From Desulfobacterales bacterium (GTDB lineage Bacteria; Desulfobacterota; Desulfobulbia; Desulfobulbales; JAJRZW01), in contig JALWTY010000292.1 in NCBI GenBank assembly GCA_026993265.1, positions 1 to 34,581 on the forward strand: a DNA stretch of 34,581 bases, read 5' to 3'. The notes beneath the pieces are model-generated. The model saw only the letters and a list, made by a program, of their open reading frames with translations, did no database searches and was not told the DNA's origin. Below are positions 4,292-33,486 of this stretch, piece after piece; position 1 is the stretch's first letter; every line of letters starts with the position of its first letter. A program made the translations under genes and the position numbers.

Positions 4292-5506
4292 TTACCTGTT
4301 CATGCCTGACAACCGCAAGTTTTTTCCCGAAGCGGCGGCGCGGGGGACAAGGACAAAGATCCGGCCCGGATGGCGCATGACCCCGGCCGCGGTTCCGGCC
4401 CGCTTCCCCTCCCCCATGTAGAGGTCGAGGCGGCAGGCCCCGCGGATGGCGGAGCCGCTGTCATGGTTGAACACGAGCCTGCGCATGGGGGTGAAACCGT
4501 TCAGCGAACCGTCCGCGTCAACGAACGGCCGCCGGGAGACAAGAAAAAGCGGTGCGCCGGGCGGATAACATCCCTGGTCCAGGGCCGCGGACCGCCCCGG
4601 AATCAACGGTTCCCCCAGGCTGCCGGCGGCAGGCCCCCGCGCCTTCCTGAAAAATATGTAGGACTCGTTGCGGGAAAGCACCTCGCCAACCTCGTCCGGG
4701 TGCTCTTTCAGATAGGAAACGATCGCCGGCATGGTCACCTCCTCGCGCCGCATCCGGCCCGTCTCCACCAGCCAGGCGCCGATGCTGCGGTACGGACGCC
4801 CGTTTCTGGCCGCATAGGCCACCCGCATGGTGCCGCCGCCGGCAAGATCCAGCACGGCCGAGCCCTGGACATGGACGATGAAGGCCTCGACAGGATCGCG
4901 CATCCAGGCCAGAACCGGCGCGGTGGCAAGACCGCGGGCGTCGATCTCGGCCCGCGGCGGATAGGGGAAGAGCGCGCCGTTCACCATCCTGCCCGCGCGG
5001 CCGTCCGGCAGGGTAACGAGATCCCGCGGCACCCCGTACAGGGGGTAGCGGTACTCCCCGGTCTTCACGGCCGAGGCCGGAAATTCCGGCTGATAATAAC
5101 CGGTTACAAGGGCGCGGCTCTTTCCTTCCGGCCGCAGGAAGACGAACTCACGCCGCAGGGCGGCAAGAAACTCCGCAGACGAGGGATGCCGCCGCCGCAG
5201 GCGGAGCAGGAGAGACAGCCCGGCAGCCAACTGCCCGCTTTCCATGTCAACCGCCCCGAGCCGGAAGGATTTCCGCCTGCTGCGGGCAAGATAGGCGAGC
5301 CCTGCGCGGGCGGCCCGCTCGATACCGGCGCAGTCCATATCATCGGCAAGACTTCCCGGATCAACGGCAACGAAACGAGCATCCCGGCAAGAGGCGCCGG
5401 CCGGACCGCAGAGGCAGAGAAACGCGCACAGCAGCGCGGCCACGGCGAACGCCGCAGGCGCCGCTCCAGATTCACGGCAGGATTCTTGCATGTCTTTTCG
5501 GATCAA
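4292..5506 (-). CDS. mltA: Membrane-bound lytic murein transglycosylase A (MltA/3D domain)
   Basis: ALVTGYYQPEFPAS, LDLAGGGTMRVAYAARNGRPYRSIGAWLVE, FNHDSGSAIRGACRLDLYMGEG. Confidence 0.85.
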   Translation of the reverse strand: MIRKDMQESCRESGAAPAAFAVAALLCAFLCLCGPAGASCRDARFVAVDPGSLADDMDCAGIERAARAGLAYLARSRRKSFRLGAVDMESGQLAAGLSLLLRLRRRHPSSAEFLAALRREFVFLRPEGKSRALVTGYYQPEFPASAVKTGEYRYPLYGVPRDLVTLPDGRAGRMVNGALFPYPPRAEIDARGLATAPVLAWMRDPVEAFIVHVQGSAVLDLAGGGTMRVAYAARNGRPYRSIGAWLVETGRMRREEVTMPAIVSYLKEHPDEVGEVLSRNESYIFFRKARGPAAGSLGEPLIPGRSAALDQGCYPPGAPLFLVSRRPFVDADGSLNGFTPMRRLVFNHDSGSAIRGACRLDLYMGEGKRAGTAAGVMRHPGRIFVLVPRAAASGKNLRLSGMNR

Positions 5507-31065: not shown

Positions 31066-32418
31066 ATGAAAAAAAAGCAAAAAAAATTCCGTTGCCGGGA
31101 GTGCGGGGCCGAGAGCGGCAAGTGGGCCGGCCAATGCCAGGCCTGCGGGGAGTGGAACTGTCTCGATGAGGTGAGCCCCGAGGAGGCGGGCCGGGCCGGG
31201 TTCGCCGGAATACGCTCCGAGCTGACTATCCTCTCCCAGGTGAAGAGCGACGCGGCCGGCCGGACAAAAAGCGGTTTCGCCGAGCTCGACCGGGTGCTGG
31301 GCGGCGGGATCGTGCCGGGCTCGGTGATCCTGGTGGGCGGCGATCCCGGGGTGGGCAAGTCCACCCTGCTGCTCCAGGTCTCCTGCCGGCTCGCGGAGAA
31401 GCACAAAACCATCTACATCAGCGGCGAGGAATCGCCGCAGCAGATCAGCCAGCGCGCCATCCGTCTCGGCCTTGGCCGTGACCGGCTGCTCCTGCAGGCC
31501 GAGACATCGACCGAGGCCATCATCGCCACGGCCGAGGCCAACGCCCCCGCCTTCCTGATAATAGACTCCATCCAGACCCTGCAGTGCGGCGACATCGGCT
31601 CCGCGCCCGGCTCGGTCAGCCAGGTGCGCGAGGCCGCGGCCCGGCTGACCGCGTTCGCCAAGCAGAACAACGTCACCGTGTTCCTCATCGGCCACGTGAC
31701 CAAGAGCGGCGATCTGGCCGGCCCCAGGGTGCTCGAGCACATCATCGACGTGGTCTGCTACATCGAGGGCGCAAGCGACAACCGCTTCCGCATGGTCCGG
31801 GCGGTGAAGAACCGCTACGGCGCGGTGAACGAACTCGGGGTCTTCGCCATGACCGACCAGGGCATGCGCGAAATAAAAAACCCCTCGGCAATTTTCCTCA
31901 CCGGCCAGGGCGATCCCATGCCGGGCAGCAGCGTGATGGCGGTATGGGAGGGCAGCCGCCCCCTGCTGGTGGAGATCCAGGCCCTGACCGACGAGTCATA
32001 CGGCGAACACCCCCGCCGGGTCAGCCTTGGGCTCGACGCCAACCGTCTGGCCATGCTGCTCGCAGTCCTGCACCGCCACGGCAGCATATCCACCTGGAAC
32101 CGGGACGTGTTCCTCAACGTGGTCGGCGGGGTGAGGATAACCGAGACCGCGGCCGACCTGCCCCTGCTCCTGGCCGTGGCCTCGAGCATGAAAAACCGGC
32201 CTCTGCCGCAGCGGATGGTATCGTTCGGGGAAATAGGGCTTGCCGGCGAGGTCCGGCCGGTGCCGAACGGCGTGGCCCGGCTGCAGGAAGCGGCCAAACA
32301 CGGCATTGCCCTGGCCGTGGTTCCCTGGCAGAACAGGCCGCCGAAACCGGTGAAGGGCCTCGAGGTCAAAGGGGTCAAAACACTGCGCGAGGCCCTTGGC
32401 GCAACATTACCAGCCTGA
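31066..32418 (+). CDS. radA: DNA repair protein RadA
   Basis: CRECGAESGKWAGQCQACGEWNC zinc finger, GGDPGVGKSTLLLQ, KNRYGAVNELGVF, C-terminal Lon-like domain. Confidence 0.96.
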   Translation: MKKKQKKFRCRECGAESGKWAGQCQACGEWNCLDEVSPEEAGRAGFAGIRSELTILSQVKSDAAGRTKSGFAELDRVLGGGIVPGSVILVGGDPGVGKSTLLLQVSCRLAEKHKTIYISGEESPQQISQRAIRLGLGRDRLLLQAETSTEAIIATAEANAPAFLIIDSIQTLQCGDIGSAPGSVSQVREAAARLTAFAKQNNVTVFLIGHVTKSGDLAGPRVLEHIIDVVCYIEGASDNRFRMVRAVKNRYGAVNELGVFAMTDQGMREIKNPSAIFLTGQGDPMPGSSVMAVWEGSRPLLVEIQALTDESYGEHPRRVSLGLDANRLAMLLAVLHRHGSISTWNRDVFLNVVGGVRITETAADLPLLLAVASSMKNRPLPQRMVSFGEIGLAGEVRPVPNGVARLQEAAKHGIALAVVPWQNRPPKPVKGLEVKGVKTLREALGATLPA

Positions 32419-32445
32419 CAGCCCGCAGAGTCTTTCAACGGGCTG
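32419..32445. repeat. 27-bp family 1 remnant directly after the radA stop
   Basis: CAGCCCGCAGAGTCTTTCAACGGGCTG retains both outer termini. Confidence 0.6.
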
Positions 32446-32599
32446 CTAAGCCCCTACCTGAGTCGGGTGCAATTTTTTAAACCCACCGCTCCATCAAGCC
32501 GACAGCGGTAAAAATTTTTTTACCGGCCGGCCACACCCCTATCCCGCCTTGTTGCCGCAAGCCCACGAAAAAGCGTATATCTCAAAAAAAATTCAGTTC

Positions 32600-32615
32600 T
32601 GGCACGCCGGCTGCA
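32600..32615 (+). promoter_or_regulatory. Sigma54 (RpoN) promoter of a candidate sRNA
   Basis: TGGCACGCCGGCTGCA; GG-N10-GC spacing, one mismatch to TGGCAC-N5-TTGCA. Confidence 0.7.
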
Positions 32616-32624
32616 TAATCATAA

Positions 32625-32711
32625 AGGGAAAGCAAAAATTCATTCTCCTTCCTCCCCTCCGGGACCGGCCTCCTCCCTTCCCCATCATCCAACGGCCGGT
32701 CCCTTTTTTTT
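32625..32711 (+). ncRNA. Candidate sigma54-dependent small RNA with C/U-rich single-stranded segments
   Basis: Starts about 12 nt after the -12 element, no ORF, ends in a perfect terminator. Confidence 0.55.
32661..32711 (+). terminator. Rho-independent terminator
   Basis: GGGACCGGCC ... GGCCGGTCCC + TTTTTTTT. Confidence 0.9.
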
Positions 32712-32713
32712 AT

Positions 32714-32732
32714 CCTGAATCCGCGACGGCTT
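32714..32732. repeat. Solo terminal inverted repeat of family 2 (copy F)
   Basis: CCTGAATCCGCGACGGCTT equals the reverse complement of the family 2 right end (AAGCCGTCACGGATTCAGG) with one mismatch. Confidence 0.65.
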
Positions 32733-32857
32733 ATCAGAAGCCGGAAGTCAGGGGACAGCAAGAGGATGCGGCCTTTGGCCGCGGCCGGTTACATGGGGGC
32801 GCACCGTGACAACAGCCGCAGGCAAAGACCGCCTCCGCTGCTTTGTCTGTCCCATAA

Positions 32858-32998
32858 CAGCCCGTTGAAAAACGTAGCGAGCGCAGACGAGGCAAGGAAA
32901 AATCCGGCGAAAAAGCGCCGTTTACATGGAGTAAATGAGCATTTTCCAGCCGGATTTTGACGCCGCATCGTCAAGCGCAGCAGTTTTTCAACGGGCTG
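32858..32998. mobile_element. MITE-like element family 1, copy 3
   Basis: CAGCCCGTTGAAAAACG...GTTTTTCAACGGGCTG... interior nearly identical to copies 1 and 2; no obvious target duplication. Confidence 0.85.
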
Positions 32999-33061: not shown

Positions 33062-33147
33062 GGAGGGATGGCCGAGTGGTCGAAGGCGGCGGTCTTGAAA
33101 ACCGTTGAGCGAAAGCTCCGTGGGTTCGAATCCTACTCCCTCCGCCA
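33062..33147 (+). tRNA. tRNA-Ser (anticodon UGA), CCA encoded
   Basis: GGAGGGATGGCCGAGTGGTCGAAGGCGGCGGTCTTGAAAACCG...variable arm...GGTTCGAATCCTACTCCCTCCGCCA. Confidence 0.95.
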
Positions 33148-33393: not shown

Positions 33394-33486
33394 GGAGAGA
33401 TGACCGAGTCGGCTGAAGGTGCTCGCCTGCTAAGCGAGTGTGGGGGTAAAACTCCACCGAGGGTTCGAATCCCTCTCTCTCCGCCA
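33394..33486 (+). tRNA. tRNA-Ser (anticodon GCU), CCA encoded
   Basis: GGAGAGATGACCGAGTCGGCTGAAGGTGCTCGCCTGCTAAGCGAG...GGTTCGAATCCCTCTCTCTCCGCCA. Confidence 0.95.

Follow-up and report, generated by a model that had tools for sequence, protein, structure and literature searches.

A predicted small RNA gene between radA and two tRNA-Ser genes

The window, a 34,581-nucleotide stretch of DNA from a Desulfobacterales bacterium (contig JALWTY010000292.1), carries a compact unit between a radA-like gene and two tRNA-Ser genes. The unit consists of two palindromes, a sigma-54-type promoter, a short region predicted to be transcribed, and a terminator. The features are listed below, UAS denoting an enhancer site.

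31066..32418, + strand: radA-like gene, the conserved upstream neighbor in syntenic group B
32466..32483, no strand: distal UAS palindrome GGTGCAATTTTTTAAACC, putative; 10/12 match to the consensus, centered ~124 bp upstream of the -24 T
32507..32524, no strand: proximal UAS palindrome GGTAAAAATTTTTTTACC, putative; 10/12 match, centered ~83 bp upstream of -24
32600..32615, + strand: sigma-54 promoter TGGCACGCCGGCTGCA, with GG at 32601-32602, N10, and GC at 32613-32614
32625..32711, + strand: predicted small RNA of ~87 nt, its start inferred at ~11-12 nt past the -12 GC
32643..32660, + strand: putative anti-Shine-Dalgarno C/U-rich segment TTCTCCTTCCTCCCCTCC, mostly single-stranded
32661..32703, + strand: terminator hairpin with a 10-bp stem and C-rich loop, supported by fold and covariation
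32704..32711, + strand: T8 terminator tract, read from the sequence
33062..33147, + strand: tRNA-Ser(TGA), the conserved downstream neighbor, in the same order in G001 and G008
33394..33486, + strand: tRNA-Ser(GCT), context, in the same order in G001 and G008

The gene at 31066..32418 is one which we take to be RadA, from its domain order and from knowledge of the family. A first-pass annotation had reported the promoter, the C/U-rich segments, the stem, the T8 tract, and one palindrome, and all of these coordinates held when the sequence was re-checked. Its palindrome, given as CGGTAAAAATTTTTTTACCG at 32506-32525, is the proximal UAS; the second enhancer at 32466-32483 had been missed.

The terminator stem is perfect, with GGGACCGGCC (32661-32670) pairing with GGCCGGTCCC (32694-32703), and the hairpin holds the C-rich segment TCCTCCCTTCCCC (32671-32683) in its loop. 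In the MFE fold, the C/U-rich segment at 32643-32660 was unpaired apart from its CCCC. The predicted RNA had a folding energy of -25.4 kcal/mol (z = -3.1 against shuffles), and a covariance model of the family matched 32599-32715 of the window with 92.8 bits, this segment being a training sequence. A covariance search of the window with Rfam matched no family; a minus-strand snoR9 match was rejected as noise (19 bits, with 90 needed).

The string TGGCACG-N5-TGCW has one exact match in the window, TGGCACGCCGGCTGCA, and one further site with a single mismatch. With up to one mismatch allowed, 0.96 sites are expected by chance in the 34 kb, and the promoter string by itself is therefore weak proof. 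Separately, an inverted repeat (CAGCCCGTTGAAAAAC/GTTTTTCAACGGGCTG), whose arms are 109 nt apart, was observed at 32855-32998, with a partial copy at 32421-32448 just past radA; judged by its sequence, it may be a MITE- or REP-like element.

Conservation and genomic settings of the RNA family

In a DNA search of relatives, the RNA body was found to be 93% identical in a genome of the same genus (G001), where its neighbors are again radA on one side and the two tRNA-Ser genes on the other. The BLAST match covered the RNA body only, and outside it, at the same offset, a perfect sigma-54 promoter was present, TTGGCACGCACATTGCT (TTGGCACG-N4-TTGC). This conservation raises the window promoter above chance. 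A weaker DNA match was obtained in another family (G020); it follows CTGGCACAGCCATTGCA and likewise has a C-loop terminator. Orthologous sigma-54 promoters were identified in L002, L025, L026, and L028. L025, L026, and L028, which belong to other families of the order, were found with a covariance model built from the RNA body only, without promoter positions (R1), and in all three TTGGCAC-N5-TTGC is correctly spaced upstream of the RNA. Since R1 held no promoter positions, these matches constitute an unbiased test of the promoter. The R1 matches L027 and L029-L033 were discarded on inspection.

Two further models included the promoter, so that promoter conservation among their matches is partly built in. 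R2, from 6 sequences, matched 111 of 258 genomes of the order at E<=0.1, while R3, from 88 sequences, matched 203/258 genomes and 59/69 genera at E<=0.01. When R3 was applied to 395 genomes of the phylum, 83 matches were obtained at E<=0.001, 72 of them outside the order, in 72 sampled genomes of other classes, and several of the latter matches carried the full architecture, including enhancers. The model E-values are rough. R3 matches in other classes also include a second regulator-RNA pair (f91/f43/f113), probably a different family, and R3 absorbed some RNAs of the f12 'type II' group without UAS, so the count for the order is somewhat inflated. The model did not confirm matches to the pattern from Zixibacteria (L088) and SI034_bin78 (L105). 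Public contigs with the pattern belong to Desulfobulbaceae, Desulfurivibrio, Desulfocapsa, and similar MAGs, from which the order was inferred to be Desulfobulbales.

The type II hairpin RNA (AATGAAACTTCATTTTTCTTCCCCTCCC; L082:4149-4255, L134, L136, L141, L147, and L159) looks similar to the family but has TTGGCAC..TTGTA in place of the full -12 GC and no enhancers, and is likely to be a separate RNA. Near the type II RNA of L136, a cobalamin riboswitch was observed at 4982-5177 (115 bits).

The terminator stem covaried, to a degree that none of 500 shuffles reached, in the order and in the other classes. Within the order, 98.0% of cells were paired, with 228 double changes compared to 53.8 in shuffles, and the covariation score of 0.703 compared with at most 0.192 when slid. 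The other classes gave 64 doubly changed cells versus 15.7 when shuffled. Of 127 distinct members, 111 had GG and GC at -24/-12, and 91 had the exact TGGCAY-N5-TTGC. The strand 5' of the terminator, the counterpart of window positions 32643-32660, was conserved as ATCTCCTTTCTCC through much of the order, and CTCCTTTC occurred in 52% of members versus 0.8% of shuffles. Open reading frames were depleted within the RNA (1.6 codons versus 6.0 in shuffles), which marks it as non-coding, and the median length from the predicted start was ~80 nt.

Three syntenic groups were distinguished: acnB, RNA, DUF362, and SDR (group A); radA, RNA, and tRNA-Ser (group B, the window); and a chemoreceptor-like gene, RNA, and dusB (group C). 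Neighbor names come from reading translations, except where Pfam was run. The tRNA-Ser pair also accompanies the RNA in L025. The genome of the window holds a second copy, of group A, in the acnB/DUF362 setting (L064:6403-6520). Some genomes contain 4-5 copies (G046, G053), and G020 has three in tandem (L074). Given the varied settings and the multiple and tandem copies, a free RNA gene rather than a leader is the best fit. One copy in G020 (L022, 4600-5140) was observed to be divergent from amtB, an ammonium transporter gene with its own sigma-54-like promoter. A search of the open-access PMC literature found nothing on the family beyond the Desulfovibrio precedents discussed below. The segment is very probably the gene of a small regulatory RNA whose undescribed family, without an Rfam entry, occurs across most of this order of sulfur-cycling anaerobes and in other classes of the phylum.

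Enhancer palindromes and the associated response regulator

Palindromes with the consensus GGTAYA-N6-TRTACC were present upstream of the RNA in all syntenic groups, the proximal one being kept throughout. Their frequency was assessed in 94 upstream regions that shared under 70% identity, with Markov shuffles as the control. The best site reached at least 10/12 in 46% of the regions, compared to 1.2% of shuffles, and a second site reached 9/12 in 33%, compared to 1.1%. Positions peaked at 80-100 bp upstream of -24 (58 sites), and second sites lay around 125 or 170-175. As no model included the UAS region, the way in which members were found cannot have influenced this test. The window's own genome (2.57 Mb) has just three sites when up to two mismatches are allowed, all upstream of its two RNA copies; the reversed pattern gave 4 sites, so the number is not significant, but the location is. 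A rigid enhancer-plus-promoter pattern proved too strict, with merely 2 matches in 58 genomes. The IHF-type option that had been offered for the palindrome is not favored, the motif recurring at a constant spacing and also downstream of the regulator gene. Both palindromes are inferred from sequence to be conserved enhancer sites for a bEBP, in the absence of binding data.

A candidate for this activator came from other classes, where the gene order is HK-RR-UAS-sRNA. In f24, f47, f50, f52, and f63, a gene for an NtrC-type response regulator precedes the RNA by ~140-300 nt, and in every case where the stretch read extended far enough, a histidine kinase gene comes before that gene; at L175, the gene upstream of the RNA is a different one. 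The regulator comprises receiver, sigma-54 activator, and Fis-HTH domains, with a loop motif that is mostly GAFTGA or GSFTGA. Its ortholog in the window's genome (G000:C122:2849-4228) scored 667 bits versus 525 for the next paralog and has the HTH sequence VQxHAAxxLGITKSLLQYKMKKY. The regulator fell below the NCBIfam NtrC cut-off (456 versus 558.6 bits) and far below that for LuxO, NF041946 (388-391 versus 800 bits).

Within the order, the ortholog was found in 212 of 253 genomes, nearly always as a single copy. There, the regulator gene is not adjacent to the RNA gene, and its kinase neighbor varies (REC-kinase or CheA-like). The RNA was present without the regulator in the MAGs G046 and G020, which are perhaps incomplete, whereas G004, G031, and G110 had the regulator and no detected RNA, and G007 and G019 lacked both. 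In other classes, the regulator was detected at E<=1e-185 in 33/40 RNA-positive but only 6/40 RNA-negative genomes (Fisher p = 1.4e-9). The p value is indicative only, as the cut-off was chosen after the score gap was seen and the genomes are related. By coordinates, the RNA lies directly behind the regulator in 15 of those 33 RNA-positive genomes, and in two of the six RNA-negative genomes with the regulator (G261, G262) it is followed by a diverged RNA that R3 did not detect. In G262 (L290), two tandem sigma-54 units were observed 394-720 bp behind the regulator gene; since these escaped R3, the family diverges beyond that model. This specific NtrC-type response regulator is thereby implicated as the putative activator of the RNA, an inference from sequence without binding data.

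A different NtrC-type regulator was observed beside a sigma-54-promoter RNA at L208:3661-3778, L216:3687-3808, L217:3924-4043, and L214:3401-3906. These RNAs have CCCUCCC/CCUCC motifs, lack the GGTAYA enhancer, and are in tandem in L214. They may form a second, parallel regulator-sRNA system of other classes, one possibly akin to the Desulfovibrio examples.

Proposed circuit and alternative explanations

In the proposed mechanism, a sensor kinase would phosphorylate the NtrC-type response regulator, which would then bind the two enhancers and activate RNA polymerase-sigma-54 at a single copy of the RNA gene or at several scattered ones; in the window's genome, these would be the radA and acnB/DUF362 copies. 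The transcript would end at the C-loop terminator, and its exposed CUCCU-type single strands may pair with Shine-Dalgarno (SD) regions and block translation without Hfq. Hfq was found in none of the 28 relatives searched, with positive controls. CTCC occurred in 87% of members versus 48% when shuffled and TCTCC in 74% versus 20%, while GGA motifs were depleted (18% versus 31%). A search for the 13-nt complement ahead of ATG turned up 12 exact matches across 194 genomes, and in no case was the gene that followed convincing; pairing, if real, would therefore use shorter cores or other contacts. Action by SD masking is plausible but inferred, with no validated mRNA targets.

The first-pass annotation had proposed a standalone, activator-controlled, sigma-54-dependent RNA able to repress many mRNAs through SD pairing. 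The standalone gene held: promoter and terminator belong to the RNA itself, the syntenic settings number at least three and are unrelated, and open reading frames are depleted. So did sigma-54 control, as inferred from the promoter sequence, which most members keep and which was present even in matches of the promoter-free model. Activator control held at the level of a conserved enhancer site and an implicated regulator. Broad repression remains no more than plausible, its support being the frequent CTCC; extended complementarity before real starts was not found.

The circuit is inferred from sequence to resemble LuxO-Qrr or CbrB-CrcZ without being homologous. LuxO is an NtrC-type response regulator that, with sigma-54, drives the Qrr sRNAs, and Qrr1-5 of Vibrio are several dispersed sRNA copies of ~100 nt (PMC8043402). 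An NtrC-type regulator with sigma-54 and one or several dispersed sRNA copies are thus shared; however, there is no Rfam Qrr match, the regulator is under the LuxO cut-off, and Hfq is missing in the relatives tested. The CbrAB-CrcZ/CrcY system of Pseudomonas likewise combines a kinase, an NtrC-type regulator, sigma-54, and an sRNA (PMC6296734). In Pseudomonas, crcZ follows cbrB, a regulator-then-RNA order like the HK-RR-sRNA order of other classes. CrcZ titrates Hfq/Crc via CA-rich motifs, whereas the present family has CUCCU motifs in a host without Hfq. CJnc230 (FlmE) of Campylobacter jejuni, of 98/88 nt, is RpoN- and FlgRS-dependent, represses translation at RBSs through a single-stranded anti-SD motif, and arises chiefly by processing of the flgE mRNA instead of by transcription from a sigma-54 promoter of its own (PMC11187230). 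By analogy, the anti-SD motif and the RpoN/two-component link are alike, and the RNA's own sigma-54 promoter is the difference.

The best precedents, by analogy and without sequence comparison, are in Desulfovibrio vulgaris, a related sulfate reducer in which an NtrC-type regulator is followed by a sigma-54 sRNA. There, the response regulator DVU0679 precedes Dv_sRNA2, of unknown function (PMC3333781), and an ncRNA lies downstream of DVU0653 (PMC4641369). Orthologs of DVU0653 occur in only a few Desulfovibrio species, and the loop of DVU0679 reads GAYTGS (PMC3333781, PMC4641369), in contrast to the predominant GAFTGA/GSFTGA here. CyaR (RF00112) shares a terminator with a UCUCCCUU-like loop and a CCUCC single strand, but its model reached at best 40.3 bits in one homolog (L026), under the gathering score of 47, and did not match the window; CyaR is an Hfq-bound sRNA and not sigma-54 driven. 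The family does not meet the criterion of multiple loop GGA motifs for CsrB/RsmZ-type sRNAs, GGA being depleted.

Several other explanations were weighed. A genuine sigma-54 two-component sRNA could titrate a protein, as CrcZ does Hfq and CsrB does CsrA, or the ribosome, rather than pair with many SDs. The repeated C/U-rich motifs in single strand and loop do look like a multi-site decoy, and no extended complementary targets were found, but neither known titration target fits, with Hfq missing and CsrA-type GGA motifs depleted; this reading appears improbable. Still harder to sustain is a leader or attenuator of the downstream gene (DUF362, dusB, or tRNA-Ser). In its favor, the DUF362 gene of group A follows closely on the same strand; against it, the downstream genes vary by group and include convergent genes, the unit closes with a strong terminator and its U tract, and tandem copies exist (three in L074 of G020, and in G262).

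The enhancers might instead bind another bEBP, such as NtrC, placing the RNA in a general nitrogen regulon, as the G020 copy divergent from amtB, with its sigma-54-like site, could suggest. We doubt this: amtB was seen beside the RNA only in G020, the NtrC site of the literature differs from the family UAS, the RNA-adjacent regulator is of the same ortholog group in several other classes, and it scores under the NtrC cut-off. A chance pairing of a promoter-like string with an ordinary terminator, which the expectation of about one such string in 34 kb would allow, is contradicted by conservation, covariation, enhancers, and synteny and can be virtually dismissed.

The preferred reading remains that the window element is the gene of a trans-acting small RNA of ~87 nt, of an undescribed family, driven by sigma-54 and a two-component system and masking SDs without Hfq. 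We consider this likely, with a probability of roughly 0.78. The sequence-level evidence, namely promoter, enhancers, terminator, covariation, synteny, paralogs, regulator adjacency and co-occurrence, and lack of Hfq, is shown; transcription, regulator binding, SD pairing, repression, the signal, and the targets are inferred, there being no expression data. A bolder version is an ancient two-component/sigma-54/sRNA circuit spanning the phylum (Desulfobacterota in the broad sense), with dispersed, duplicated, and tandem RNA copies as almost the only targets of the regulator, and with SD masking of many mRNAs without Hfq, which would amount to a global post-transcriptional switch comparable to Qrr. 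The evidence falls a little short of favoring that version.

Characterized base-pairing sRNAs are nearly absent for sulfate-reducing and sulfur-disproportionating bacteria, the Desulfovibrio precedents being without known function. Now that a regulator, an enhancer sequence, and a candidate seed can be named for a conserved RNA, sRNA regulation in Hfq-less bacteria becomes directly testable, and the RNA offers both a new Rfam-type family and a regulon readable by DAP-seq and RNA-seq in cultured relatives.
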